This document shows positions 14,970 to 30,621 of a DNA stretch of 46,087 bases, piece after piece. The position numbers and the translations under genes were made by a program. The stretch lies in the NCBI GenBank assembly GCA_948470905.1, contig CAOKQK010000021.1, positions 1 to 46,087 of the forward strand, given 5' to 3'. A model generated the notes under the pieces. It was not told the origin of the DNA. It searched no databases and saw only the letters and a list, made by a program, of their open reading frames with translations. Within the stretch, counting starts at the first letter, position 1; each line of letters starts with the position of its first letter. The DNA is from an uncultured Lachnospiraceae bacterium. GTDB lineage: Bacteria; Bacillota; Clostridia; Lachnospirales; Lachnospiraceae.

Positions 14970-15017
14970 GAAAAACATATGGGCTTTGACCCGCAAAAAC
15001 CAGGAAAGGAACTCATT

Positions 15018-16256
15018 ATGAAAACAGAAACTGATAACAAAATAAGCAGCCATCAAAGGCTGAATGTAGCCATTTTCTTCGGAGGCTGCTCCTCCGAATA
15101 CAGCGTTTCCCTTTGTTCCGCCTCAGGCGTGATCCGCAGCCTGAACCGTGAGAAATATGAACCTGTCCTGATCGGCATCACACAGGACGGACGCTGGTTC
15201 CATTTCACCGGCTCTGTGGAGGAAATCGAAAACGATACCTGGGCGGCTTCCCCAGGCTGCACGCCCGCCGTGCTCTCCCCCAACAGAGGCGAAAACCGCC
15301 TGATCCTTTTGGGGCAGTCGGAAACTGCCTCTATCCATATCGATATTGCCCTTCCCATTCTTCATGGCAAAAACGGCGAGGACGGTACCCTGCAGGGACT
15401 GCTGGAGCTTGCAGGCATACCCCTGGCAGGCTGCGGTACTCTCGCCTCCGCCCTCTGCATGGACAAAGACCGCGCGCACAGGCTTGCCGCCTGCGCGGGA
15501 GTGCAGGTGCCCAAGGCGTTTGTACTGGAGCGTTTTGACGCCTGCCCCGCAGAAGCACAAAAATCTGCTGCACAGGAGCATTCGCACGGCTCTGACGCCT
15601 GCCCATCCCGCCCCCACATGGCGGAGCTGGCCGCCGCGTCCATTGCCCCGTCCGCTGCCGCGGCTCCGGAGAATGAGCTTTACTTTTCCGCACGGATTTT
15701 TGCCCAGGAAACGGGCTATCCTCTTTTTGTAAAGCCTGTGAAGGCAGGCTCCTCCTACGGCGTCACCAAAGTCACCGCGCCGGAGCAGCTTGTGCCCGCC
15801 ATTGAACTGGCTTTCCAGCATGATGACCAGGTGATCCTGGAGGAAAACATAGACGGCTTCGAGGTCGGCTGCGCCGTGCTGGGCACATCGGAGCTGATCA
15901 CCGGGGAAATCGACGAGATCGAACTGTCCGGGGGCTTCTTTGATTTCACCGAGAAGTACACCCTGAAAACCTCGTCCATACATGTTCCGGCAAGGATAGA
16001 TGAATCAAAATCCGCAGAGCTTAAGGAGACGGCAAAGGTCATTTACCGCGCACTGGGCTGCCGCGGCTTTGCGAGAATTGATATGTTCCTGACCCCTGAA
16101 GGCGAGATTTTCTTCAACGAGGTCAACACGATACCCGGGTTCACGGAGCACAGCCGCTATCCGGGCATGATGAAGGCGGCAGGCTATCCCTTTGAAGATG
16201 TCCTGGACAGGATCCTGGAACAGGCAGCAGCCGTTTATGGAGAATTTGCTGTATGA
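15018..16256 (+). CDS. vanG: VanG-type D-alanine--D-serine ligase
   Basis: ATP-grasp ligase of 412 residues that joins D-Ala to a second D-amino acid for peptidoglycan precursors. N-terminal IFFGGCSSEYSVS and LHGKNGEDGTLQG are Ddl/Van family blocks. The specificity loop EKYTLKTS (312-319) has the EKY-x-L form of D-Ala-D-Ser ligases (VanC/E/G), not the EAKYLSDE-like loop of ordinary D-Ala-D-Ala ligases. C-terminal FFNEVNTIPGFTEHSRYP holds the Mg-binding residues. Start chosen at MKTETD (AAGGAA upstream) rather than 14979. The protein is about 60 residues longer than VanG because of an Ala/Ser/His-rich insert at about 176-225. It heads a three-gene operon with vanXY and vanT. Confidence 0.92.
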   Translation: MKTETDNKISSHQRLNVAIFFGGCSSEYSVSLCSASGVIRSLNREKYEPVLIGITQDGRWFHFTGSVEEIENDTWAASPGCTPAVLSPNRGENRLILLGQSETASIHIDIALPILHGKNGEDGTLQGLLELAGIPLAGCGTLASALCMDKDRAHRLAACAGVQVPKAFVLERFDACPAEAQKSAAQEHSHGSDACPSRPHMAELAAASIAPSAAAAPENELYFSARIFAQETGYPLFVKPVKAGSSYGVTKVTAPEQLVPAIELAFQHDDQVILEENIDGFEVGCAVLGTSELITGEIDEIELSGGFFDFTEKYTLKTSSIHVPARIDESKSAELKETAKVIYRALGCRGFARIDMFLTPEGEIFFNEVNTIPGFTEHSRYPGMMKAAGYPFEDVLDRILEQAAAVYGEFAV

Positions 16257-17071
16257 AGAATCCCATTTCAAAAGACCCGGCCTGCACCAAAAAGGTCACT
16301 CTGCCGCGTGAAGGCATTCACAGCGGCAGTCTGATCCTGGTAAATGCCCAGTACCGTTTCCAGGGAAAAAACAACGACCTGCTGATCCCTGTCCATGATC
16401 CGTTTCCCGACATCCTGCTGAACCGCCGGGCCGTAGTGTTGCTTTCCGAACTTATGCAGGAGATTGACGGCTGGCGTCATATCGTACCCGTCAGCGGCTG
16501 GCGGTCACAGGAGGAACAGCAGGCCATATGGGACGACACTGTAAAGGAGAGCGGCCTGGAATTTACCCGCAAATATGTCGCTGTCCCCGGCCACAGTGAG
16601 CATCAGACCGGATTGGCAATCGACCTTGGCTTAAAGCAGGAGCATGTGGACTTTATCTGCCCGGAATTTCCCTATACGGGCATCTGCCAGACCTTCCGTG
16701 AAAAAGCGGCAAAATACGGCTTTATCCTGCGTTATCCCGCGGGAAAAGAGCATGTCACCGGCATCGGGCATGAGCCCTGGCACTTCCGCTACGTAGGGGC
16801 GCCGCACGCGGAGATCATGTCCTCAAAGGGACTGACCCTGGAAGAGTACACCGACTTTTTGACCCGGTTCCCCTATGGAGATATGCCCTACCAACATGTG
16901 AGCGGCAACAAAACCATATACATCTCCTATATCAGGGCAGACCAGGGCGAGACCACCCTGAACCTGCCGGAAAATCTGCCCTACTCCCTTTCCGGCAACA
17001 ACAAAGATGGCTATATTTTGACAGAATGGAGGACAGAAAATGCGCAGCAAAGAGAATTACGGAGGGCTTGA
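16253..17071 (+). CDS. vanXY: VanXY-type D,D-dipeptidase/D,D-carboxypeptidase
   Basis: Zinc peptidase of 272 residues that removes D-Ala-D-Ala dipeptides and terminal D-Ala from precursors, so that only D-Ser-ending precursors remain. SGWRSQEEQQAIW (81-93) carries the conserved Arg; zinc ligands are His117 and Asp124 in SEHQTGLAIDL and His177 in EPWHFRYVG, with catalytic Glu174. No signal peptide is seen, as expected for a cytoplasmic VanXY rather than a membrane VanY. The start overlaps the vanG stop by 4 bp (ATGA), and the end overlaps vanT by 32 bp, so the three are translated from one message. Confidence 0.92.
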   Translation: MKNPISKDPACTKKVTLPREGIHSGSLILVNAQYRFQGKNNDLLIPVHDPFPDILLNRRAVVLLSELMQEIDGWRHIVPVSGWRSQEEQQAIWDDTVKESGLEFTRKYVAVPGHSEHQTGLAIDLGLKQEHVDFICPEFPYTGICQTFREKAAKYGFILRYPAGKEHVTGIGHEPWHFRYVGAPHAEIMSSKGLTLEEYTDFLTRFPYGDMPYQHVSGNKTIYISYIRADQGETTLNLPENLPYSLSGNNKDGYILTEWRTENAQQRELRRA

Positions 17072-19610
17072 CGGCTTTCGCCTCGCGGCGGCACTTCTTG
17101 TCATCGCCATCCATACCTCACCCCTGACCTCTGTCAGCGCAGACGCGGACTTTTTCCTGACCAGGATCCTGGCGCGGGTTGCCGTGCCTTTTTTTCTTAT
17201 GGTCACAGGTCAATTCGTCGCCGCCAGATTCCAGGACGGCGGGGGCGCAGCCGGCGGCAGAGACAATCCGGGTAACAGGGACAGTACACTCGTCCTGGGG
17301 CGTTATCTGCGCAAAATGCTCCTGCTCTACCTGGCCGGCATTCTGCTCTATCTGCCCATCGGCATATATGCGGGGCATTACAAGGACCTGACCATAGGCC
17401 GTGTGCTGCGGATGCTTGTCTTTGACGGCACTTTTTACCACCTATGGTACTTCCCCGCCTGTATCACAGGCATGCTCCTGGTATATCTGATGAGCAGGGC
17501 GTTAAAGTTCCAGGGCATGTTTGCAGTGTCCGTGCTTCTCTACCTGATCGGACTGCTGGGAGACAGCTATTTCGGTCTGGCGGAAATGCTTCCGCCCCTG
17601 AAAAGTGTTTATGAATTTGCCTTCCAGATCTTCTCCTATACCAGAAACGGGCTGTTTCTCGCACCTTTATTCCTGGTTCTGGGCATGCGTATGGGGAAGG
17701 GCGGTTTTCTGGAAAAATATAAAGGAAATCCCAGGCTCTATCTCACCATAAACCTCACGGGGCTGACTGTATCCTTTCTGATGATGACGGGCGAAGCCTT
17801 CTGTCTGAGGCACTTTGAATTTCAGCGTCATGACAGCATGTACCTGCTGCTGGTCCCGGTGATGATCTTTCTGTACCAAAGCCTGCTGTGCCTGCCCGCC
17901 AGACCGCAAAAGCTGCTGCGCAGCGCTGCCCTGTGGATCTACGTACTCCACCCTGCCTTTATCGTGGTGGTAAGAGGGATTGCAAAGGTGCTGAAAATGA
18001 CTGCCCTGCTGGTAGACAACAGCATCATACATTACCTTGCTGTCACTGTACTTTCCCTGGGCGCCGGCTTCTGCCTGGCAATTCTGCAGAGCCGGCTTTC
18101 CCGCCGCAGGACAAAGGACAGCCTTCCCCAAGAGGGGGAAGCGGGCAGTCATGAGCTTGTTGCGCAGGAGCGTAACGATCTTGCCGAAATCCTCGAAGGC
18201 TACAGGACTGTGATGTATTCCTGGATATCCGAAAGAGACAGGGACATTGAATATTCTCAGGAAGTCGACGCAGATATAGACACCGATCCTGGCAGGGATA
18301 ACGAGAACGCCGGGGACGCCTCGCAGGTTCTGTCTGACGGAAATGCCCGGCAGATACGATCCGCCAAAGATATGCCTCAGGTTCTGCCCGACGGAAATGC
18401 CAGACAGATACGATCCGCCGAAGATATGCCGCAAGTGCTGCCCGACGGTAATGCCAGGCAGGTACAATCCGCCGGGCATACACCCCAGGTTCAGCCCACC
18501 AGCAGGGCGTGGATACAATTGGATATGAAGGCTCTGGCCGAAAATGTCGCCTTTCTGCGCTCTCTCCTGCCTGAGGGCTGCCGCCTGATGCCGGCTGTCA
18601 AGGCAGACGCCTACGGCCACGGGGCCGTTCCCATCGCCAGGGAGCTGAACCGCCTGGGCGTGGATGCCTTCTGCGTGGCGACCATTGCCGAGGGCATTTC
18701 CCTGCGCAGGGCAGGCATCCAGGGCGAGATCCTGATCCTGGGCTATACGCCGCCGGAGGACCTCCCTTTGCTGGTCCGCTGGCAGCTTGCCCAGTCCGTC
18801 GTAGACTATCCCTATGCGGAACAGCTTGCCCGTTCCGGCCTGAAGCTGCATGTACACGTAGCCATTGACACAGGCATGCACCGCCTGGGCATCCGATGCG
18901 AGAATATAGAAGATATCGCCGCGGTTTTTGAAATGGAAAATCTGTCTATTGACGGAATGTTCAGCCATTTCAGCGCAAGCGATTCCCCGGATGACGTCAG
19001 CAGGGCATTTACAAAGGCTCAGGCCGACGCCTTTTATCAGGTGGTGGAAATCCTGGAGGCACAGGGGTTCCCGCGCCCGAAGCTCCACCTGCAGGCATCC
19101 TATGGGCTGTTGAACTATGCCCATCTGGAGTCCGATTATGTGAGGGCGGGCATTGCCCTGTACGGCGTACACAGCTGTGCCGAAAATGCCTCCATTTCCC
19201 GGCATAAACTCTCCCCTGTGCTGTCCCTGATGACGCGGGTAATCTCTGTCCGCATGCTCTATGCCGGAGATTCCGCCGGCTATGGGATGGACTTTACCGC
19301 AGACAGGGATATGAAGCTGGCCGTACTCTCCATCGGCTACGCGGACGGCCTGCCGAGAGAACTGTCCGGCGGCAGAGGATATGTGCTCATCCACGGTCAT
19401 AAGGCGCCTGTCATCGGAAGGATCTGCATGGATCTGACCCTGGCAGACATAAGCAAGATCCCGCAGACACAGGTTGGCGATATCGCCGTTGTCATCGGGA
19501 GATCTGACAGGGCGGAGATCACCGCTGAGGAGATTGCATCACAATGCGGTACTATCACCAACGAACTGCTCAGCCGCCTGGGTCCGCGCCTGGAGAGAGT
19601 TATTACCTGA
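17040..19610 (+). CDS. vanT: VanT-type membrane-bound serine racemase
   Basis: Two-part protein of 856 residues. Residues 1-360 form an acyltransferase-3-like membrane domain with about ten helices (GLDGFRLAAALLVIAIHTSPL at its start), thought to take up or present L-Ser. From about 489 on is an alanine-racemase fold: PLP lysine Lys521 in KADAYGHG and AGYGMDF further on. Near the end, Asn841 in ITNELLSRLG replaces the Tyr of alanine racemases (Tyr354 in Geobacillus Alr), the change reported for VanT serine racemases. Family members are near 700 residues; the surplus lies in a repeat-rich linker (about 365-488). GGAGG precedes the ATG inside vanXY. It provides D-Ser for VanG. Confidence 0.93.
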   Translation: MRSKENYGGLDGFRLAAALLVIAIHTSPLTSVSADADFFLTRILARVAVPFFLMVTGQFVAARFQDGGGAAGGRDNPGNRDSTLVLGRYLRKMLLLYLAGILLYLPIGIYAGHYKDLTIGRVLRMLVFDGTFYHLWYFPACITGMLLVYLMSRALKFQGMFAVSVLLYLIGLLGDSYFGLAEMLPPLKSVYEFAFQIFSYTRNGLFLAPLFLVLGMRMGKGGFLEKYKGNPRLYLTINLTGLTVSFLMMTGEAFCLRHFEFQRHDSMYLLLVPVMIFLYQSLLCLPARPQKLLRSAALWIYVLHPAFIVVVRGIAKVLKMTALLVDNSIIHYLAVTVLSLGAGFCLAILQSRLSRRRTKDSLPQEGEAGSHELVAQERNDLAEILEGYRTVMYSWISERDRDIEYSQEVDADIDTDPGRDNENAGDASQVLSDGNARQIRSAKDMPQVLPDGNARQIRSAEDMPQVLPDGNARQVQSAGHTPQVQPTSRAWIQLDMKALAENVAFLRSLLPEGCRLMPAVKADAYGHGAVPIARELNRLGVDAFCVATIAEGISLRRAGIQGEILILGYTPPEDLPLLVRWQLAQSVVDYPYAEQLARSGLKLHVHVAIDTGMHRLGIRCENIEDIAAVFEMENLSIDGMFSHFSASDSPDDVSRAFTKAQADAFYQVVEILEAQGFPRPKLHLQASYGLLNYAHLESDYVRAGIALYGVHSCAENASISRHKLSPVLSLMTRVISVRMLYAGDSAGYGMDFTADRDMKLAVLSIGYADGLPRELSGGRGYVLIHGHKAPVIGRICMDLTLADISKIPQTQVGDIAVVIGRSDRAEITAEEIASQCGTITNELLSRLGPRLERVIT
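18321..18498. repeat. 54-nt in-frame minisatellite in the vanT linker
   Basis: Three full units and a partial fourth, each encoding 18 residues of the form PQVLPDGNARQIRSAEDM. The first two full copies are nearly identical in DNA. They form the hydrophilic joint between the membrane domain and racemase domain. Confidence 0.9.
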
Positions 19611-21082: not shown

Positions 21083-22660
21083 ATGGGCAGCAGAAAAAAG
21101 ACCCGGCAATTTGATCAATTTGTCATTGAACTGAGTAAAAGAAATATCACCATGGACCAGCTCTGCCAAGGACTGTGCAGCAAACGAATGGTATGCTATT
21201 TAAAGAGCGGTGAACGCTCGCCTGGTAAACTCCTGCAGGATCGCATTCTGGAAAGACTTGGTATTGAAACGGAGAATTACGAATATTTTCTTTTTAATGA
21301 GGAATATAACTGCTGGGAGGCCAGACAGCTCATTCTGCACAACATTACCTGTGAAAACTGGGAACGTGCTGAACAGCTTCTCTGGGAATACCGCGATACT
21401 CACGATATGGATAATGCACTGGAAAAGCAGTTTTGCCTCAGTATACAGGCACAGATACGGCGCCGCCAGGGAGAAACTCCAGAAACACTGAGCAGGCTCT
21501 ACGAAGAAGCCGCACGTCTCACCGTGCCGGATCTGGAGAACAAGCCTCTGTCAGAACTGGCATTATCTCTCAAAGAGCTGGACTTGATACTGGAAGCCGA
21601 ACATTACCGTAAAGGAGGAGAACGTCCGCAGCAATACCAGGAAATCGCGGATTACATTCTGACAAGCGGATTTGACAGTACCTGCGTGGCAAAGCTTTAT
21701 CCGAAAGCGATATATTTTCTGTGCAGAAGTGTGGAGAAAACCCCTGATCCCACCTGTCGAAAGCAGTGGAACGACAATAAACTCCTGTCGCAATGCAACC
21801 GCGCTTTCGCGGTTCTGCGAAAAAATTTCATATTGTACTATTTCTGGGAAGTACTGGATATGCGTGGAAAACTGTTGGAGCGGCTATTGCAGGATCCTGC
21901 TCTGACCCAGGAACCGCACAGGGCAATGAGCCTTACTGGCCTCTGCCGAAAAAACGCCTTATGGAAACAGGCACTGGAAAAAATCTATGCAGAACTCCGC
22001 ATACCCAAAAGGACTTATGACAATTGTTACCTCTATACTGTGAAAGGCGTATCCTGTATCAATGATGTCGTCCGTATCCGCCGTAAAATGTTGGGAATCA
22101 GCCAGAAGGAACTGTGTGAAAACATCTGCGACACAGCCACCCTGCGGCGGCTGGAGCAGCGCAAAACTGTGACCCATAGAGATATTGCAGAAAAGCTTTT
22201 TGAACGGCTTGGACTATCGACGGAATTTATACGCACAAATCTGGTAAGTGCAGGCTATGATGCAAAACAAAAGATGAAGCTGCTCGAAATGTGTATCATG
22301 AAAAGAAAATGGGAAGACGCAAAGCTGCTCCTGGAACAGCTTCAAAGTCTCATATCCATGGACATTCCCGTTAATCGGCAGGCAATAATGCGCCAAGAGG
22401 CACTTATCCGCTGGCACAGCGCAGAAATAAGCCGGAACGAATATCTCTCCCTGGTACGGGCAGCTTTGGAACTGACCCTGCCTATTAAGGCATTTTACTC
22501 AGAAGGCGAGAAATACCTTACAAATGAAGAACAGCTCTGTATTCGGAACCTGATGTGGGCAATGGACAAGACCAGCGATGAATACGCTGTCTATGCACAA
22601 ATGCTGACGGCGTCGTGCGAAAAAGCGACAGAGTGGTTCACAAAAACAGGTTTGGAGTGA
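21083..22660 (+). CDS. Double-HTH, helical-repeat transcription regulator
   Basis: A 525-residue protein that appears to be an internal duplication. An XRE-like HTH near residues 12-62 (LCSKRMVCYLKSGERSPGK) and a second at about 328-378 (RKMLGISQKELCENICD, TLRRLEQRK) are each followed by helical, TPR-like sequence of some 130-260 residues. The layout recalls the peptide-sensing RRNPP regulators (Rgg/PlcR/ComR), where an HTH is followed by a TPR ligand-binding domain, but two HTH-TPR halves in one chain are unusual. No transmembrane segment. The 3' end overlaps an inverted repeat placed just before the promoter of the next gene, so the protein probably controls the downstream secreted-protein/lipoprotein genes. 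Function inferred, not proven. Confidence 0.75.
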   Translation: MGSRKKTRQFDQFVIELSKRNITMDQLCQGLCSKRMVCYLKSGERSPGKLLQDRILERLGIETENYEYFLFNEEYNCWEARQLILHNITCENWERAEQLLWEYRDTHDMDNALEKQFCLSIQAQIRRRQGETPETLSRLYEEAARLTVPDLENKPLSELALSLKELDLILEAEHYRKGGERPQQYQEIADYILTSGFDSTCVAKLYPKAIYFLCRSVEKTPDPTCRKQWNDNKLLSQCNRAFAVLRKNFILYYFWEVLDMRGKLLERLLQDPALTQEPHRAMSLTGLCRKNALWKQALEKIYAELRIPKRTYDNCYLYTVKGVSCINDVVRIRRKMLGISQKELCENICDTATLRRLEQRKTVTHRDIAEKLFERLGLSTEFIRTNLVSAGYDAKQKMKLLEMCIMKRKWEDAKLLLEQLQSLISMDIPVNRQAIMRQEALIRWHSAEISRNEYLSLVRAALELTLPIKAFYSEGEKYLTNEEQLCIRNLMWAMDKTSDEYAVYAQMLTASCEKATEWFTKTGLE

Positions 22661-22670
22661 ACCACTCTGT
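22628..22670. promoter_or_regulatory. Operator-like inverted repeat, copy 1
   Basis: ACAGAGTGGTTCA (22628-22640) and TGAACCACTCTGT (22658-22670) are perfect 13-bp arms, 17-nt spacing. The left arm encodes the last residues of the regulator and the right arm contains its stop codon. No T-tract follows; instead a -35 element begins 3 bp later. Identical arms occur at 25618-25660. An activator or repressor site is more likely than a terminator. Confidence 0.65.
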
Positions 22671-22673
22671 CAG

Positions 22674-22702
22674 TTGCGCAGTTTTCATTACTCTATTATA
22701 AT
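22674..22702 (+). promoter_or_regulatory. Promoter of secreted protein gene 1
   Basis: TTGCGC (22674-22679), 17-nt spacer, TATAAT (22697-22702). The same promoter with TTGCAC occurs before the second copy. The leader holds a conserved small hairpin GAGGC-aca-GCCTC. Confidence 0.6.
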
Positions 22703-22793
22703 AAAGTCACGAGGCACAGCCTCATTATGCTGATATCATGGAGTGAATAAAGTATTTTGATGGTTTTATCCACGAATGAAAGGGGAAACAAAA

Positions 22794-23186
22794 ATGAAGA
22801 AAAAAATAAGCACTGTAGTATTGCCTTGTCTGGCCTGTATCGGAATGCTTGCTTTTCATGCACTGCCTGTGGAGGCATTCGGCCCTGACAACTGTTCCCA
22901 TCCGAATTATGCACTGGGCACCGATGGGGCAACAGGAGAATATGAATATCTGGAGAGCGGACACTATGAAATATGGGGCATGGGACACACCTGTCTGAAA
23001 TGCGGATACACATTTTATACGGACACACATTTTGTGTTTGACTGTGGTCACGATTGGGAAAGTATCGCATCGGAGGTATATACGGAAAACGGCGTCACTA
23101 CCTATAAATATCCTTGCAAGACCAGCGAATGTGATAGATTTTATACCGTGACAACGCAAGTCACTGCTCTGGAAAACTCTTTTTAG
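22794..23186 (+). CDS. Small secreted Cys/His-rich protein, copy 1
   Basis: A 130-residue exported protein with a Sec signal peptide (KKK, hydrophobic core, cleavage likely after PVEA at about 28). The mature part carries Cys34/His36, HTCLKCGY (His65, Cys67, Cys70), His79, Cys84/His86 and two further cysteines, which suggests a zinc-ribbon-like or disulfide fold. Start fixed at MKKKIST: an ATG 18 nt upstream overlaps the AAAGGGG site and is absent from the second copy. It lies between the regulator and a lipoprotein gene in a duplicated unit. I do not recognise the family; a signalling or ligand-carrying role is inference from context. Confidence 0.75.
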   Translation: MKKKISTVVLPCLACIGMLAFHALPVEAFGPDNCSHPNYALGTDGATGEYEYLESGHYEIWGMGHTCLKCGYTFYTDTHFVFDCGHDWESIASEVYTENGVTTYKYPCKTSECDRFYTVTTQVTALENSF

Positions 23187-23304
23187 CATTTTAACCAATG
23201 GCATAACATGATAATTCCATACATATTCATGCCTTGCAAGGGCATTTTCAGGTATGTATGAAATGTCTGTACCATATTATCCGCTTCATGGCATTCAGCA
23301 CATC

Positions 23305-23335
23305 AAGGGGGCGATTTTTACCCGCCCCCTTTGTT
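23305..23335 (+). terminator. Terminator between secreted protein 1 and lipoprotein 1
   Basis: AAGGGGGCG (23305-23313) pairs with CGCCCCCTT (23323-23331), followed by TTGTT. Another foldback, CATACATA/TATGTATG, lies just upstream at about 23220-23260. The unit is therefore probably only partly co-transcribed. Confidence 0.65.
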
Positions 23336-23402
23336 GCAATATACATTTTTTATGATACGGCAATCCAGCATTGCCATATATTATTTAGATAAAGGAGTTT
23401 CT

Positions 23403-25565
23403 ATGAAAAAACTATATTCCATCATGGCCCTGCTCCTGTTCTGTCTGTCCTTATCCTCCTGCAGCGGGCAGAATAACGACAGCCAGCTCCCCTGGCAGGG
23501 CATACAGACGGGCACAAAGGATCTGTCCGCCATCACCGACCGGACGGAGTATTACGATATTACCGCGGAGCAGGAGCCCATCTTCCAATGGGAGCCGAAG
23601 GGCGAGAACTCGCCCCTGGCAGAAAGGCGAAGCTCTTTCATCAGCATGCAGTTCTATCAGGGAGAACCGGTACAGTTCTGGGGCATTGAAACCATCAGAG
23701 GGCAATTCATGTTTTGGGATCTTTACCTATATAGGCTGGATGGCAGCAGGGAGCTGCTGCTGCAGGATATCTCCATGAAATCTCGTTGTTATCTGGATCA
23801 GGATGGAAATCTTTATTTGTGGAAAAATTCTTTTGAAACCATATATGAAGACGGCAGCACCGAAACAACAGAAACGATACTGCAGAAGTACAGCCCTTCC
23901 AGAGAGCTCCTCTATGAGCAGCAATTTGAATACGGATATAATATCCAGGAGATCCGACAGACGGCGGACGATAAGGTGTACCTGTTCACCAGCAGCAATG
24001 GAGCCGACGAACAGAATTCCCGAAAGCTGGCGGAGCTGAAGCCTTCCACCGGGGTTGTCACGGAGCTTGGCGCTGTCAGCCTGAGCAAGGAGTTGTCCCA
24101 GCCTGATCTGGGAACATGGGGCAAAAAGCTGGTGACATTAAAATACCAGCAATTGTATGGCAACGAGATCACCGCGATCAACGTAAAAAACGGCAAAGAA
24201 ACCTGTGTCCTCTCTTTCCAGGGGACTACCTATCTTCTCCCTTCCGATCTTTATCTGCAGGAATTCCGGGTACTGGAGGATGAAAGCGTGGAGATCCTCT
24301 GGACGTCCGCGGACGGCAGCAGCAGTCTGCGGGAAAGGCTGCGAATGGAAAAGGTGGAGAGAACCCCTATCGTCCTGAGAGGACAGGATGTCACCGGCTG
24401 GCTGGCCAAACAGATCAACGCCTTCAACCGCCAGAACAAGACATATCATGTAATCGTAGAGGACTGTGGATACGGGAATGATATGGAGGACTTTGCACGC
24501 CTGACCAGCGTCCAGATTGCGTCAGGAAAGGGACCGGATATCCTGTATGGCGGACTGATGCAGGATTATATCTCCGGCATGATAAAAAATGGGCTTCTGG
24601 AAGATCTGCGGCCCCACATGGAAAAAAGCGGCATGCAGGAGGAGAATTATTTTCCTTTCACCTTTGCCGCATGGCGGGATGGGGAAAAAATCTGCGGCAT
24701 CAGCCCGGCGACACCCAGCCTGAGCAGCTATCGTATGGACAGCGCCGTCCTTGGAGGAATGCAGGAACCAGATATCCAAACGCTGGTGGACGTCCTGCTG
24801 GCCAGGCAGGAGGACGCCGTATTTCTGAAAACACATGATTCACAGATGCTGTTAGAGTTTTTGCTGGAAGGCTCAGACACGCTCTGGGGTATGGTGGACT
24901 GGGAAAAGGGAAGCTGTGACTTCAACGGGGAGCTGTTCGCCCAGATATTGGAGACGGCAAAGCGGTATGGAAAAAGCGAAAATAAAAGGGATCTGACCCC
25001 CATCGCAGAGGGCCGCTCCTTTATAGACATTTACGTCTATGATGAGAAGGAGGAAAGGGAGAAGAAAGGAAAGACCATCTGTGGCGTTTTATTTGACGAC
25101 GGATGCCATGTGGCGGTCAATTCCTATTCCGCTCTTGCCATCAATACCAATTCATCCAATAAGGAGGGGGCATGGGAATTTCTCTCCTTCCTTCTGGGCG
25201 ATGAGGCGCAGTCCGCCAGCAACATCCCGGCGGCAAGATCAAATTTTGCCGCATGGGTGGAAAAGCAAAAAGAAACATTTGCGAACGGAAAAAAGGTCGA
25301 TATGATGTATGGTGAGCGTTTAGCCGATGGAAGTATTAAACCTACAGGCAGGGTGATATATACGGCTGCGGATGTCACGGATGAGATCATAGAGGAATAT
25401 ACAGAGGCATTAGAGGATGCACGCCCCTGCCCTCTCCGCACCATTCCCATCCTGGATATCATCAGCGAGGAAGCTGCGGATTACTTCAGCGGCAGCAAGA
25501 GTGCGGCGGATGTGGCAAAGCTCGTCACCAACCGGGTGCAGACATATTTGGATGAGGGATATTGA
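23403..25565 (+). CDS. Propeller-like/solute-binding lipoprotein, copy 1
   Basis: A 720-residue surface lipoprotein with signal peptide and lipobox LSSC (Cys20). Residues about 40-320 show repeated strand patterns typical of a beta-propeller-like sensor (LYLWKNS, VYLFTSS, VLSFQGTTYLL). From about 325 on is a family 1 extracellular solute-binding domain: INAFNRQNKTYHVIVED, VQIASGKGPDILYGG, PFTFAAWRDGEKICGISP and the late SSNKEGAWEFLSFLLGDEAQ. The start at 23403 has AAAGGAG. No ABC permease or ATPase gene is nearby, so it may sense or capture a ligand rather than feed a dedicated transporter. It is a clear paralogue of the protein at 26321-28492. Confidence 0.85.
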   Translation: MKKLYSIMALLLFCLSLSSCSGQNNDSQLPWQGIQTGTKDLSAITDRTEYYDITAEQEPIFQWEPKGENSPLAERRSSFISMQFYQGEPVQFWGIETIRGQFMFWDLYLYRLDGSRELLLQDISMKSRCYLDQDGNLYLWKNSFETIYEDGSTETTETILQKYSPSRELLYEQQFEYGYNIQEIRQTADDKVYLFTSSNGADEQNSRKLAELKPSTGVVTELGAVSLSKELSQPDLGTWGKKLVTLKYQQLYGNEITAINVKNGKETCVLSFQGTTYLLPSDLYLQEFRVLEDESVEILWTSADGSSSLRERLRMEKVERTPIVLRGQDVTGWLAKQINAFNRQNKTYHVIVEDCGYGNDMEDFARLTSVQIASGKGPDILYGGLMQDYISGMIKNGLLEDLRPHMEKSGMQEENYFPFTFAAWRDGEKICGISPATPSLSSYRMDSAVLGGMQEPDIQTLVDVLLARQEDAVFLKTHDSQMLLEFLLEGSDTLWGMVDWEKGSCDFNGELFAQILETAKRYGKSENKRDLTPIAEGRSFIDIYVYDEKEEREKKGKTICGVLFDDGCHVAVNSYSALAINTNSSNKEGAWEFLSFLLGDEAQSASNIPAARSNFAAWVEKQKETFANGKKVDMMYGERLADGSIKPTGRVIYTAADVTDEIIEEYTEALEDARPCPLRTIPILDIISEEAADYFSGSKSAADVAKLVTNRVQTYLDEGY

Positions 25566-25617
25566 AGAATTTCTTATATATACTCATTCTATAGCAGAGG
25601 CTGCGGGCAAAAAGGCT

Positions 25618-25660
25618 ACAGAGTGGTTCACAAAAACTGGTTTTTTTTGAACCACTCTGT
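25618..25660. promoter_or_regulatory. Operator-like inverted repeat, copy 2, with relic of the regulator 3' end
   Basis: The same 13-bp arms as at 22628-22670, offset by 2,990 bp. The short frame across it still reads KKATEWFTKTGF, the C-terminus of the regulator, so the duplicated unit began inside the regulator gene. The spacer has changed to a T-rich stretch while both arms are unchanged, which argues for selection on the arms. Confidence 0.7.
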
Positions 25661-25663
25661 CAG

Positions 25664-25692
25664 TTGCACAGATTTCATTACTCTATTATAAT
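25664..25692 (+). promoter_or_regulatory. Promoter of secreted protein gene 2
   Basis: TTGCAC (25664-25669), 17-nt spacer, TATAAT (25687-25692), 3 bp after the inverted repeat, as in copy 1. Confidence 0.6.
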
Positions 25693-25783
25693 AAATTCAT
25701 GAGGCACAGCCTCATTATGCTGATATCATGGAATGGATAGAGTATTTTGACAGTTTTATCAACTAAGGAAAGGGGAAACAAAA

Positions 25784-26143
25784 ATGAAGAAAAAAATAAG
25801 CACTGTAGTATTACCTTGTCTGGCCTGTATCGGAATGCTTGCTTTTCATGCACTGCCTGTGGCGGCATTCGGCCCTGACAACTGTTCCCATCCGAATTAT
25901 GCACTGGGCACCGATGGGGCAACAGGAGAATATGAATATCTGGAGAGCGGACACTATGAAATATGGGGCATGGGACACACCTGTCTGAAATGCGGATACA
26001 CATTTTATACGGACACACATCTTGTATGGGACAGTGATCATGATCTCGGCGGCGGGACAATAGTACTTAAGCCAGATGGCACTGCCGAGGTCAGGTATTA
26101 TTGTACATTCAACGGCTGTGACTGGTATGGTGTATATGAATAA
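25784..26143 (+). CDS. Small secreted Cys/His-rich protein, copy 2
   Basis: A 119-residue paralogue of the protein at 22794-23186. The first 79 residues differ by one substitution (PVAA instead of PVEA at the cleavage region), and the DNA is nearly identical through GYTFYTDTH. After that the sequence is unrelated in detail (LVWDSDHDLGGG onward), although it again ends with two cysteines in a strand-rich tail (YYCTFNGCDWYG). Such a sharp change points to recombination or gene conversion with different C-terminal modules. Same promoter, operator and ribosome binding site as copy 1. Function unknown. Confidence 0.75.
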   Translation: MKKKISTVVLPCLACIGMLAFHALPVAAFGPDNCSHPNYALGTDGATGEYEYLESGHYEIWGMGHTCLKCGYTFYTDTHLVWDSDHDLGGGTIVLKPDGTAEVRYYCTFNGCDWYGVYE

Positions 26144-26320
26144 CGCTATACAGCGTTAAGCCGCGGCTTCTCCGGCGTTCTGGCACCACATAATTCCATC
26201 CATGATAATCAGCATAATTATCCGAAAGCTTCTTACCATCTGAATAAGTCTATTGAACATACCTGACAGCGCAAAGCTCAAAACCATATAACACTTGAGC
26301 TGCTTAAACGAGGGAGTATT

Positions 26321-28492
26321 ATGAAAAAAATATGTTCCACCATGGCCCTGCTCCTGTTCTGTCTGTCCCTGATCTCCTGCAGCGGGCAGAAAAACGACAG
26401 CCAGCTTCCCTGGCAGGGCATACAGGCAGGCACAAAGGATCTGTCCGCCATCACCGACCGGACGGAGTATTATGACATTACCGCGGAGCAGGAGCCCATC
26501 TTCCAATGGGAGCCGGACAGCGAGAACTCGCCCCTGGCAGATAGGCGAAGCTCTTTCATCAGCATGCAGCTCTATCAGGGAGATCCGGTACAGTTCTGGG
26601 GCATACAGGCCATCAGAGGACAATTCATGTTTTGGGATCTCTACCTCTACAGGATGGACGGCAGCAGGGAGCTCCTGCTGCAGGATATCTCCATGGACTC
26701 TCATTGCTATCTTGATCAGGCTGAAAATCTTTATTTGTGGAAAAATTCTGCTGAAATCATACATAAAGACGGCAGTATTGAAACAACAATGACAACACTG
26801 CAGAAGTACAGCCCCTCCCGAGAGCTCCTTTATGAGCAGCAGTTTGATTACGGATATGATATCCAGGAGCTCCGGCAGACGGCGGACGGCAGGGTGTATC
26901 TGTTCACCAGCGGCAAAGGAGCCGTCGGACAGGATAGACGGCTGGCAGAGCTGAAGCCTGACACCGGGCTTGTCACAGAGCTTGGCGCTGTCAGTCTGAG
27001 CAAGGAGCTGGCAAGACCGCATCTGGGAACATGGGACCAGAAACTGATAACATTTAAAACCCAGCCTTTGCTTGGCAACGAGATTACGGCAATCAACGTG
27101 AAAAACGGTAAGGAAACCTGTGTCCTCTCTTTTCAGGGGACTACTTATCTGCCACCCTCCGGTTTTAATCTGCAGGACTTCCGGGTCCTGGAGGATGAAA
27201 ACGTAGAAATTCTTTGGACAGCCGAGGACGGCAGCAAAAGCCTGCGGGAAAGGCTGCGGATGGAAAAGGTGCTAAAGACGCCTGTCGTCCTGAGAGGGCT
27301 GAATATCACAGGCTGGCTTGCCTCCCAGATCAACAGCTTCAACCGGCAGAGCATCGACTATCACGTCATAGTAGAGGACTGTGGACAGGGGAATGATACA
27401 ACAGATTTTGCGCGGCTGACCAGCGTTCAGATCGCATCCGGGAAAGGGCCCGACATCATAGAGGGCAATCTGATGAAAGAATATATGTCCGGCATGATGG
27501 AAAAGGGCGCCCTGGAAGATCTGCATCCCTACATGGACGGAAGCGGCATTCTGGAGGAGGATTATTTCCCCTTTACTTTCGGCACATGGAGAGACGGGGA
27601 CAAGATATTCGGCGTCTGCCCCACATCGCCCGCACTGGCTGGCTTTTGTATGGACAGCGCTGTCCTTGGCCAAGAGGAGGAGCCGGACATTGAGACATTA
27701 ATCAATGCCCTGCTTGCAAGGCAGGAGGAAACTGCCTTTCTGAAAAATTACGATCCACAGAAGCTCTTAGCGCTTTTCCTGGAGGCCACTGACACACTCT
27801 GGGGAATGGTGGACTGGGAAAAGGGAACCTGTGACTTTGGCGGAGAACTGTTTGCCAAAATATTAGAAACAGCAAAACGGTATGGTGACAGCGAAGCCCT
27901 GGGAGAAGTAAATTATATTGCGGAAAGCCGCAGCTTTTTTGATATCTTTGAATTTGACAGCAAGGCTGACCGGGAAAGGGACGGGAAGGTAATCTGCGGA
28001 GTGATATTTGACGATGGATGCCATGCGGCAGCCTCTCCCTATTCCATTTTGGCAGTCAATGCCGCTTCGTCACAAAAGGAAGGGGCCTGGAAATTTATTT
28101 CTTTTCTTTTAGGAGATGAAGCTCAATCTGCAAGAAGCCTGGGAAGCGGCATTCCCGTCAGCAGGAATGCTCTTGACACCTGGCTGGAAATGCAGAAAGA
28201 CCGGGTTGCGGACGGACGGGTAATCCGCAAGATGATCCTGCATCAAGCTGCCGATGGAAGCACTTCGATCGCAGGTACGGTAGTTTATACGGAAGCCGAT
28301 ATCACGGAAGAAGTCATAACGGAATATCTTGAGGTTCTGGAGAATACACACACCTATCCTGTCCGCACTGCCCCCATCCTGGACATCATCAGTGAGGAGG
28401 CGGCAGATTACTTCAACGGCAGTAAGAGCGCGGAGGATGTGGCAAAGCTTGTCACCAATCGGGTGCAGACCTATCTGGACGAAGGGCATTGA
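26321..28492 (+). CDS. Propeller-like/solute-binding lipoprotein, copy 2
   Basis: A 723-residue lipoprotein (lipobox LISC, Cys20), colinear with copy 1 over its full length and roughly three-quarters identical by eye. The propeller-like half keeps LYLWKNSA, VYLFTSGKG and VLSFQGTTYLPP; the solute-binding half keeps GWLASQINSFNRQ, IASGKGPDIIEGN and EGAWKFISFLLGDEAQS. Differences concentrate in the binding domain (for example SPALAGFCMDS against TPSLSSYRMDS), which would fit altered ligand choice. The pair has diverged far more than the small secreted proteins before them. A terminator follows, and no transport genes are linked. Confidence 0.85.
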   Translation: MKKICSTMALLLFCLSLISCSGQKNDSQLPWQGIQAGTKDLSAITDRTEYYDITAEQEPIFQWEPDSENSPLADRRSSFISMQLYQGDPVQFWGIQAIRGQFMFWDLYLYRMDGSRELLLQDISMDSHCYLDQAENLYLWKNSAEIIHKDGSIETTMTTLQKYSPSRELLYEQQFDYGYDIQELRQTADGRVYLFTSGKGAVGQDRRLAELKPDTGLVTELGAVSLSKELARPHLGTWDQKLITFKTQPLLGNEITAINVKNGKETCVLSFQGTTYLPPSGFNLQDFRVLEDENVEILWTAEDGSKSLRERLRMEKVLKTPVVLRGLNITGWLASQINSFNRQSIDYHVIVEDCGQGNDTTDFARLTSVQIASGKGPDIIEGNLMKEYMSGMMEKGALEDLHPYMDGSGILEEDYFPFTFGTWRDGDKIFGVCPTSPALAGFCMDSAVLGQEEEPDIETLINALLARQEETAFLKNYDPQKLLALFLEATDTLWGMVDWEKGTCDFGGELFAKILETAKRYGDSEALGEVNYIAESRSFFDIFEFDSKADRERDGKVICGVIFDDGCHAAASPYSILAVNAASSQKEGAWKFISFLLGDEAQSARSLGSGIPVSRNALDTWLEMQKDRVADGRVIRKMILHQAADGSTSIAGTVVYTEADITEEVITEYLEVLENTHTYPVRTAPILDIISEEAADYFNGSKSAEDVAKLVTNRVQTYLDEGH

Positions 28493-29314: not shown

Positions 29315-30013
29315 TCAAATATTCCTCACAAGCTCTGTCACCAGCGCCGCGGAGTGCTTTGCCGCCGCCTTCTCAAAGGCAGGGTAATCCATCTCCGCAC
29401 TGTCGTCCGCCTTATCGGAAATAGCGCGTATGATGACAAAGGGGATCCTGTTCAGGCAGGCGCCATGTGCAATGGATGCCCCCTCCATCTCTGCGCAGTC
29501 ACCCTGAAACTGGCTGATCAGACGCTCCTTCACTTCCCTGCTGGAAATGAACTGGTCGCCGCTGACCACCCTGCCCAAAACAGCATGGACATCCGGATTG
29601 ACCTTTTCACAGGCTGCCTTTGCCAGCGCCGTCATACGCTCATCCGCCACAAACTCCCGAAAGCCCATCTGGGGCACCTCACCCAACTGATAGCCAAAGA
29701 TTGTGACATCCATATCGTGATGCAAGGCATCCCTGGAAATCAGGATATCCCCTATGTCCAGCTTCGCATTCAGGGATCCTGCAACGCCTGTATTGATAAT
29801 ATGGGTCACTTCAAAAATGTCCGCCAGAATCTGCACGCACAGCGCCGCGTTTACCTTGCCGATACCGCTGCGGACTACCACCACGGGCGTGCCGTTCAGG
29901 GTTCCCTGATAAAAATCCATTCCTGCCCGCTTCTCTATCTTGGACACGGACATCTCTGCCTTCAGCTGTTCTACCTCCAGCTCCATCGCTCCTATAATTC
30001 CTATCTTGCTCAT
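29315..30013 (-). CDS. mtnN: 5'-methylthioadenosine/S-adenosylhomocysteine nucleosidase
   Basis: Hydrolyses SAH to adenine and S-ribosylhomocysteine (and MTA to methylthioribose), the step before LuxS. The 232-residue protein starts IGIIGAMELEVEQL, where the family's catalytic Glu lies. HIINTGVAGSL is the ribose/phosphate loop, CAEMEGASIAHGA contains the nucleoside-binding Glu, and RAISDKADDSA the catalytic Asp. The start at MSKIGI has GGGGAGG upstream; the in-frame sequence before it is not family-like. It lies 96 bp downstream of luxS on the same strand, a functional operon for the activated methyl cycle. Confidence 0.96.
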   Translation of the reverse strand: MSKIGIIGAMELEVEQLKAEMSVSKIEKRAGMDFYQGTLNGTPVVVVRSGIGKVNAALCVQILADIFEVTHIINTGVAGSLNAKLDIGDILISRDALHHDMDVTIFGYQLGEVPQMGFREFVADERMTALAKAACEKVNPDVHAVLGRVVSGDQFISSREVKERLISQFQGDCAEMEGASIAHGACLNRIPFVIIRAISDKADDSAEMDYPAFEKAAAKHSAALVTELVRNI

Positions 30014-30109
30014 ACTATGCCTCCCCAGCGCGTTTTTCATCTCCACAGCACACCTCACAGTAGAGGTGTGCCCTGGCTTTGCAGTCTCATTCCTCATTGC
30101 CGCATTTTT

Positions 30110-30589
30110 CTACTGCGGATAAACCAGCCTGCTGTCATCAATGCCATAAAGGACGTTGTCCAGGTACTTCCCGGCCAGATAGTTCGCCATGGAAAGGTTC
30201 ATATCCAGATAATTGCCGCAGTCTCTGGGCGACGCGCCGGGCACCTCATCCTTATAATCGCGGATAAACTCAAACATCTCTGTCATCAGGGGTACAATAT
30301 CCCTGGATGCATAATTGCCTGCCAGCAGCAGATAGAAGCCCGTGCGGCAGCCCATAGGCCCAAAATAAATCGTCTTGTCTTTATAGACCGGATGATTGCG
30401 CAGAAAAGTTGCACCAAGGTGCTCGATGGTATGTACCTCGGCGGTATTCATCACCGGCTCCTCATTGGGGCTTGTCATACGCAGGTCAAAGGTAGTGATC
30501 GTCTCCGCGCCCACAGTGTCCTTTCTGGAAACATAGACCCCGGGCTGCAGCTTGATGTGATCGATGGTAAAGCTTGCAATTTTCTCCAT
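30110..30589 (-). CDS. luxS: S-ribosylhomocysteine lyase (AI-2 synthase)
   Basis: Cleaves S-ribosylhomocysteine to homocysteine and DPD, the precursor of autoinducer-2. The metal ligands are His53 and His57 (HTIEH) and Cys124 (RDCGNY), with catalytic Cys81 in GPMGCRTGFYL, all in the expected places for a 159-residue enzyme. Start chosen at MEKIAS, which aligns with other LuxS proteins and has AAGGATGG upstream; two in-frame ATGs lie up to 18 nt earlier. First gene of the luxS-mtnN unit, with a good promoter and a leader hairpin. The AI-2E family permease at 4955 is not linked to it. Confidence 0.97.
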   Translation of the reverse strand: MEKIASFTIDHIKLQPGVYVSRKDTVGAETITTFDLRMTSPNEEPVMNTAEVHTIEHLGATFLRNHPVYKDKTIYFGPMGCRTGFYLLLAGNYASRDIVPLMTEMFEFIRDYKDEVPGASPRDCGNYLDMNLSMANYLAGKYLDNVLYGIDDSRLVYPQ

Positions 30590-30621
30590 TTTGTCCATCC
30601 TTTTCATTTCATTTTGGCAGA

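Follow-up and report, generated by a model that had tools for sequence, protein, structure and literature searches.

The window studied here is a 46,087-nt stretch of DNA (assembly GCA_948470905.1, contig CAOKQK010000021.1) and constitutes contig C21 of the 3.7-Mb, 157-contig genome of an uncultured Lachnospiraceae bacterium. Between positions 21083 and 28492 it encodes a regulator, REG, followed by two tandem copies of a unit in which an inverted repeat and a predicted promoter precede genes for a small secreted protein, SEC, and a lipoprotein, LIP. Judging from sequence comparisons, this locus probably belongs to a family of peptide quorum-sensing modules in which the regulator consists of two fused PlcR-like receptors of the RRNPP type, and was first damaged and afterwards duplicated. 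In fuller members of the family, REG is followed by a convergent (tail-to-tail) gene, PRO, for a putative small secreted precursor, then by a long inverted repeat flanked by predicted promoters that point away from each other, and finally by cargo genes. We propose that PRO would be exported, its C-terminal part released and re-imported, and that the resulting peptide would bind one or both of the tetratricopeptide repeat (TPR)-like domains of REG. With two helix-turn-helix (HTH) motifs per chain, REG would bind the inverted repeat through half-sites like those of the ComR box (GACA/TGTC) and would switch both the PRO promoter, as feedback, and the cargo promoter. The features of the window copy are as follows.

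21083..22660, + strand: REG, 525 aa, a fused double RNPP-like regulator (HTH and TPR-like region, twice), C-terminally truncated relative to its family
22055..22237, + strand: second HTH of REG, approximately residues 325-385 (Pfam HTH_3 at residues 331-382; the PlcR match starts at profile position 326)
22604..22630: junction of REG and the duplicated unit, where family-wide REG homology ends; the REG C-terminus, PRO and spacer of most relatives are absent
22627..22671: inverted repeat 1, candidate operator, arms GACAGAGTGGTTCAC and GTGAACCACTCTGTC, GACA-to-TGTC span 45
22674..22702, + strand: predicted SEC1-LIP1 promoter (TTGCGC, 17 nt, TATAAT), its -35 starting 2 nt past the repeat as in many relatives
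22794..23186, + strand: SEC1, small secreted Cys/His protein of 130 aa with a signal peptide; all-beta model, mean predicted local distance difference test score (pLDDT) 75
23403..25565, + strand: LIP1, lipoprotein of 720 aa; N-terminal half all-beta, other half of the sugar-type solute-binding kind
25618..25661: inverted repeat 2 (copy 2), candidate operator copied along with the unit
25664..25692, + strand: predicted SEC2-LIP2 promoter (TTGCAC, 17 nt, TATAAT), read by eye; layout as in copy 1
25784..26143, + strand: SEC2, small secreted Cys/His protein of 119 aa; first ~80 residues almost identical to those of SEC1, remainder different
26321..28492, + strand: LIP2, lipoprotein of 723 aa, 72% identical to LIP1

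The five open reading frames (ORFs) on which an earlier note on this DNA had been built are all present. As small corrections, 22794 and 23403, in register with copy 2, are the more likely start sites of SEC1 and LIP1. The tandem period of ~2,990 bp that the note gave is borne out by direct repeats (22609-22908 with 25599-25898 and 23402-23701 with 26320-26619, each at 92%), and inverted repeat, promoter, small secreted protein and lipoprotein were seen in both copies.

REG as a fused receptor pair and its truncation in the window

The double HTH previously ascribed to REG is correct, since an alignment of the two halves shows them to be homologous (hhalign probability 99.1, E 7.4e-19, 163 columns); Pfam placed only the second HTH of the window protein above its cut-off. 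The suggested kinship with RRNPP-type regulators also held, the REG profile matching PlcR with an E value of 6.4e-8, and the N-terminal half gave a weak match to the HTH of ComR (E 0.2). More specifically, the two halves occur as separate, overlapping neighbour genes of 306-319 aa in three genomes (L178, L179 and L181). The profile of these split genes matches residues 1-272 of PlcR, along the PlcR length, with an E value of 2.5e-17, and the halves of double REGs align with split-gene relatives over 261 and 303 columns. HTH_3 was above cut-off in all four split genes scanned and RNPP_C in two of them, with a third just short. A midpoint-rooted tree with several long branches, built from 106 halves (53 of the 54 double proteins could be cut) and six split genes, separated the 53 N-halves and three split N genes from the 53 C-halves and three split C genes with a support of 100/100. 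The receptor pair is therefore old, and in the double protein two RRNPP receptors have been fused; as far as its sequence tells, REG consists of two PlcR-like receptors.

Each chain of the double form contains two HTHs of the XRE type (HTH_3 in 16 and HTH_31 in 15 of 18 members, E ≤ 0.1), and a TPR peptide-binding domain is reached through profiles that lead from the halves to the split forms and on to PlcR residues 1-272. Length sets the double REGs apart. The sections consulted of the paper describing an RRNPP survey tool (PMC10075063) list five criteria, with a default receptor length of 250-500 aa that the split forms satisfy; 51 of the 54 double REGs were called at 598-703 aa and the other three at 502, 525 (the window) and 555 aa, so that the published tool would miss them at its default. 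The 54 are the distinct members with at least 300 nt of downstream sequence. Relatives of REG were found in 32 of 146 close genomes, in 49 of 397 genomes sampled across the Lachnospiraceae (43 of 334 genera) and in 6 of 341 genomes of a class-wide sample, these counts including single-half matches; the sole double form of the class-wide sample beyond the window's own genome belongs to the same family.

The window REG covers positions 2-514 of the 625 in the family model. Some 110 C-terminal positions are missing, and its last dozen codons read into the inverted repeat. PRO is gone, the precursor search finding none at this copy; the operator and SEC-LIP remain, twice over. Probably, a deletion that began within the last TPR-like region of REG fused the gene to the repeat and took out PRO, after which the remaining repeat-promoter-SEC-LIP unit was duplicated in tandem. 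Aligned in 60-column steps, the two copies form a mosaic: the repeat, the promoter and the first ~80 SEC codons are 88-100% identical, the remainder of SEC and the SEC-LIP gap 25-43%, the first ~900 bases of LIP 76-96%, the stretch further on 41-81% and the region near its end 81-88%. SEC1 and SEC2 (22794-26143) thus combine an almost identical N-terminal block with very different C-terminal parts, as if the C-terminal half had been recombined or swapped.

Truncation recurs among relatives. The REG with the highest N-half identity to that of the window (L105, 555 aa) is short too, with no LIP within 3 kb, and L112 (4662-6461) holds an in-frame ORF that joins a REG N-half to a LIP C-terminal half, a second deletion inside such a module. 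Elsewhere in the window's own genome, on contig C1, L029 (2715-4643) encodes a distant double-HTH relative with a convergent 50-aa ORF of signal-peptide-like character whose stop overlaps that of the regulator by 4 nt; no repeat was found there, and this is possibly an intact module within that genome.

With PRO gone, the local switch could therefore not be driven by a signal gene of its own. The window REG may be signal-blind (fixed on or off), may answer a signal made elsewhere, or may be decaying. That the copy is nothing but a decaying remnant, with a dead truncated REG and constitutive SEC-LIP, is a serious possibility to which we give somewhat less than even weight, and one compatible with our explanation of the family. 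The truncation and the loss of PRO speak for it, as does a second REG paralogue of the same genome (C110), which is also truncated (374 aa) and for which neither repeat nor PRO was found. Against this, REG retains both HTHs in an open frame of 525 codons, and the repeat and promoter are retained in both copies, with the cargo-side layout kept.

PRO and the inverted repeat as candidate signal gene and operator

A first comparison set ten related modules beside the window (11 loci in all). The distance from REG to cargo in these ten is 358-849 nt; a long inverted repeat is present in all ten and a full convergent small ORF in eight, the exceptions being L107, with a partial ORF lacking a signal-peptide start, and L114, with no ORF. 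The PRO genes have a Shine-Dalgarno-like sequence and encode 45-93 aa (after correction of the start in L115), with a signal-peptide-like start, judged by pattern and not by SignalP, and a tail that is hydrophilic for the most part. Several PRO tails from the window's clade contain GI.P..D or similar, as in EPGISPLNDKD. In half of the cases (18 of 36), PRO and REG overlap by 4 nt at their stops.

Under fixed rules, PRO was called at 36 of the 54 double REGs and at 22 of 358 control genes, the repeat at 33/54 and 17/358, and the two together at 23/54 and 1/358; the controls were other genes from the same loci, and related loci are not independent. This was not a blind count, as similar finder runs on most loci preceded the setting of thresholds. 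When the 11 discovery loci were set aside (n = 43), PRO was called at 28, the repeat at 24 and both at 16. The small ORF is antisense to REG at 36 of the 54 and on the same strand at four. The window itself was scored as lacking a repeat because its repeat overlaps the REG stop. Because PRO and repeat recur at double REGs far above controls, PRO, rather than SEC, is the likely signal on present sequence comparisons. It also stands beside REGs whose cargo includes neither SEC nor LIP (L120, L124 and L125, for example).

One could instead take REG for an Xre/TPR-like regulator of another ligand, such as a LIP-linked sugar, and PRO for a small secreted product, an antisense or a toxin-like gene. 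The TPR region of REG is indeed too diverged for Pfam, PRO sequences differ widely between genera, and the cargo varies (LIP-like genes, ABC (ATP-binding cassette) transporter genes, a radical S-adenosylmethionine (radical-SAM)/ABC cluster). We nonetheless regard this as unlikely, given the PlcR homology over full length through the split forms and the export-signal-like start and mostly hydrophilic tail of PRO, with the motif noted above in several members of the window's clade. An adjacent gene for a small secreted protein is, moreover, the defining partner of RRNPP receptors in the part of PMC10075063 consulted, and such a Sec-exported precursor is found, by pattern, at the 36 double REGs counted above.

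In the window, inverted repeat 1 has two perfect 15-base arms, and its arm core occurs four times at no more than one mismatch, with 0.4 expected. A scan of the 146 genomes with the pattern of the commonest repeat returned 11 sites in eight genomes, the reversed control pattern giving one site in each of two genomes. For ten of the 11, a REG stop is found no more than 0.4 kb away, and the last is ~8 kb from a REG in the same cluster. This last site, in G026, appears as a second operator copy, with a 605-aa ORF 0.2 kb further on. No such repeat was found upstream of the 28 SEC or LIP genes outside canonical REG modules (450 nt searched; 242 and 262 nt in two cases).

Promoters were scored around 39 repeats, four of which had no anchor, leaving 35 on the cargo side and 34 on the PRO side, as the window has no PRO; L107 and L113 are rows that do not fit, the script having anchored them on the wrong GACA. 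The best predicted -35 begins 2 nt past the half-site in 21/34 cases on the PRO side and 17/35 on the cargo side, and an exact TATAAT occurs in 16/34 on the PRO side. Mean promoter scores, out of 12, were 8.6 for the PRO side, 7.8 for the cargo side and 6.2 for shuffled cargo-side sequence, a control that covers the cargo side, the PRO side having none of its own. Measured between their outer ends, the two half-sites span 33-55 bp in 31 of the 35 repeats. No claim is made for an inner dyad within the arms: a 4-base gap gives full dyads in 7 of 39 (z 3.5), but gaps of 2 and 7 give z values of 3.0 and 4.0, and the loci are related.

Instead of an operator, the repeat could be a small mobile repeat or could act in RNA, as a terminator or attenuator hairpin. 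Its arms are long and nearly perfect around a variable loop, and complementarity is retained while arm sequence drifts between modules, as such elements would allow. This is nevertheless rather improbable and was not our first choice: the site sits between two predicted divergent promoters with the -35 placement just described, the window has no Rfam match, and the scarcity of sites, ten of 11 beside REG, argues against a dispersed element.

SEC, LIP and the cargo of related modules

SEC carries a conserved CxH..H..CxxC..H..CxxC signature resembling a set of metal ligands, with spacing variants and with losses in some rows; its sequence suggests metal binding, and the body of the protein is modelled as all-beta. 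The SEC profile recognised 24 sites in 13 of the 146 genomes, LIP following at 21 of them; since 13 of the 24 were profile seeds chosen beside LIP, the figure for the remaining sites is eight of 11. Only seven of the 24 lie within 3.2 kb of a REG. By these counts, SEC-LIP is a separate recurring unit. At L166, which belongs to a genus other than that of the window, a SEC-like gene (49 bits) comes after a double REG.

LIP combines a lipobox and an all-beta N-terminal half with a solute-binding half. PF01547 (SBP_bac_1) is above cut-off in both LIP1 and LIP2 and the best Foldseek match is CbpC, so that LIP is a sugar-type binding protein like CbpC, YesO and MalE; an OppA-type, peptide-binding identity was rejected on these profile and Foldseek matches. 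The two-part reading of LIP previously put forward stands for the solute-binding half. Its propeller-like half goes no further than an all-beta region, modelled with 23 strands over residues 51-327 (mean pLDDT 86); the 50 matches listed for LIP included no propeller and were, judging by their titles, solute-binding proteins or entries carrying a maltose-binding-protein fusion. The absence of transporter genes agrees with the wider set: an ABC sugar permease lies within 6 kb of one of the 44 core LIP genes (>300 bits, duplicates removed) and none near the window copies. The second ground for refutation named in the earlier note, a constant association of the lipoproteins with ABC permeases elsewhere, is thereby not borne out. 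Many core LIP loci have short flanks, so that a missing SEC, REG or permease there is no proof of absence. In the window's own genome, 28 places match LIP, some of them pieces of one gene and some partial at contig ends, which points to a large paralogous expansion; several have SEC before them.

SEC and LIP most likely form the output, as a surface pair that may bind carbohydrate or each other. The earlier note had placed the regulator class and the neighbourhood rightly and had mistaken this output for the signal, with SEC or its product as signal, LIP as the receptor delivering it and REG as the switch. That model agrees with the tight SEC-LIP pairing, with an RRNPP-like REG and with the trio being neighbours in several genomes, yet it is highly improbable, given that SEC shows a conserved metal-ligand-like signature and no variable C-terminal peptide, that a distance of 3.2 kb around 17 of its 24 sites holds no REG, that fuller modules carry the better-suited PRO, even where SEC and LIP are missing, and that LIP is of the sugar type rather than one that delivers peptides.

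The three genes are neighbours elsewhere too, L115, L116 and L091 showing the trio by profile and further loci by eye, so that the first ground for refutation in the earlier note, a trio never found together in other genomes, does not apply. Within the 13-member REG clade of the window, LIP-like cargo is present in nine of the 11 members with more than 3 kb downstream (L107, L109, L110, L113-L116, L118 and the window; not L105 or L108) and is often preceded by a gene for a small secreted protein. LIP cargo also occurs outside this clade, at L127 and L091. Other modules carry ABC transporter genes (L132 by Pfam; L120 and L124 by eye) or a radical-SAM and ABC cluster (L133 by Pfam; L134, a near copy). 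In L133 (9072-16421) and L134 a radical-SAM protein and an ABC transporter come after the REG module, possibly a cluster for a ribosomally synthesised and post-translationally modified peptide under the same type of control.

Near the module, positions 14979-19610 hold a VanG-type-like cluster, with a D-alanine--D-serine ligase VanG above the NCBIfam cut-off, a VanXY-like gene below it and a VanT-like serine racemase whose catalytic part is above it. Just downstream, on the opposite strand, an MTA/SAH (methylthioadenosine/S-adenosylhomocysteine) nucleosidase gene adjoins an S-ribosylhomocysteine lyase (LuxS) gene (29315-30607). A PADLOC search for a defence system gave nothing at E ≤ 0.01.

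Weight of the evidence and relation to known systems

Several results weigh against a signalling module of this design. Single-sequence Pfam searches of 18 double REGs returned RNPP_C in none, and each TPR model that appeared did so in one of the 18. At the thresholds used, PRO was not called at 18 of the 54 double REGs, nor the repeat at 21. The span of the repeat is not uniform, 45 being the mode (9/35) with 33, 39 and 54-55 in clear cases; as 39 is half a helical turn off, helical phasing is suggestive only, with exceptions at that span. A REG relative lies within 6 kb of only five of the 44 core LIPs, at four loci (the window twice, C110, L091 and L029, whose REG is distant), and most REG-linked LIPs elsewhere are of a divergent class, at 50-155 bits rather than >300. 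Because the closest relatives of LIP are mostly without REG and the REG-linked ones divergent, what is conserved in the trio is the kind of gene and not the individual orthologue. Only in L115, L116, L091 and the window did the SEC profile pick up the small secreted gene; those of L109, L113 and L118 were called by eye, and the version in L127 has two cysteines only. The correlation between SEC and LIP distances is no more than weak (Mantel r 0.22, p 0.09, 16 pairs). Finally, function in the window is conjecture, because PRO is missing there.

Among known systems, PlcR-PapR of the Bacillus cereus group is the nearest, each REG half being homologous to PlcR and the gene for a small secreted precursor adjacent. 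PlcR has a palindromic site near promoters, a further likeness to the repeat of the REG modules. The latter differ in placing two receptors in one chain of ~600-700 aa, in a PRO that is convergent to REG with the overlapping stops noted above, and in having as their site a long inverted repeat with predicted divergent promoters on its two sides. With ComR-ComS of streptococci they share the GACA/TGTC inverted-repeat half-site, besides the weak HTH match; the ComR box is an inverted repeat of 20 bp in the sections consulted of PMC5131891, in contrast to the 33-55 bp found here. The C-terminal half of LIP resembles the ABC solute-binding lipoproteins CbpC, YesO and MalE, from which LIP differs in its extra all-beta N-terminal half, its frequent SEC partner and the lack of any permease found in 43 of the 44 core cases.

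In the portion of PMC9765709 covered, the pheromone gene of RRNPP systems usually adjoins that of the receptor, which has 5 to 9 TPRs; together with that of PMC12700828 it describes these systems mostly from Bacillales and Lactobacillales, QsrR being one of a few cases from clostridia. The searched parts of PMC12700828 make no mention of two HTHs. Within the literature searched, outside which most subscription journals and preprints lay, we found no paper containing both RRNPP and Lachnospiraceae, none among those listed on a two-HTH or fused RRNPP receptor, and none on Acetatifactor with solute-binding and lipoprotein; PMC10626739 does contain Rgg, PlcR and Lachnospiraceae. We therefore read the REG modules as an RRNPP quorum-sensing variant without counterpart in that literature.

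Taken further, we hold it somewhat likelier than its opposite that these modules represent a large undescribed quorum-sensing branch in gut Lachnospiraceae, with a covalently joined RRNPP pair, bridging of a long repeat, exchangeable cargo and signal-losing modules that multiply. One chain would bring both HTHs needed at half an operator, together with a pair of TPR-like sensors that recognise one or two peptides, and two chains would bridge the long inverted repeat, setting signal gene and cargo from one site. The receptor pair would have arisen from two adjacent genes that are still unfused in some genera; SEC-LIP, ABC transporters and the radical-SAM cluster would be exchangeable cargo, and modules that lose their signal would leave an operator-cargo unit free to multiply, as in the window. 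If true, this would give a dominant gut family a form of peptide communication whose candidate receptor, signal and operator are already located, and the fused receptor would naturally lend itself to testing how a single operator is shared by two RRNPP units.

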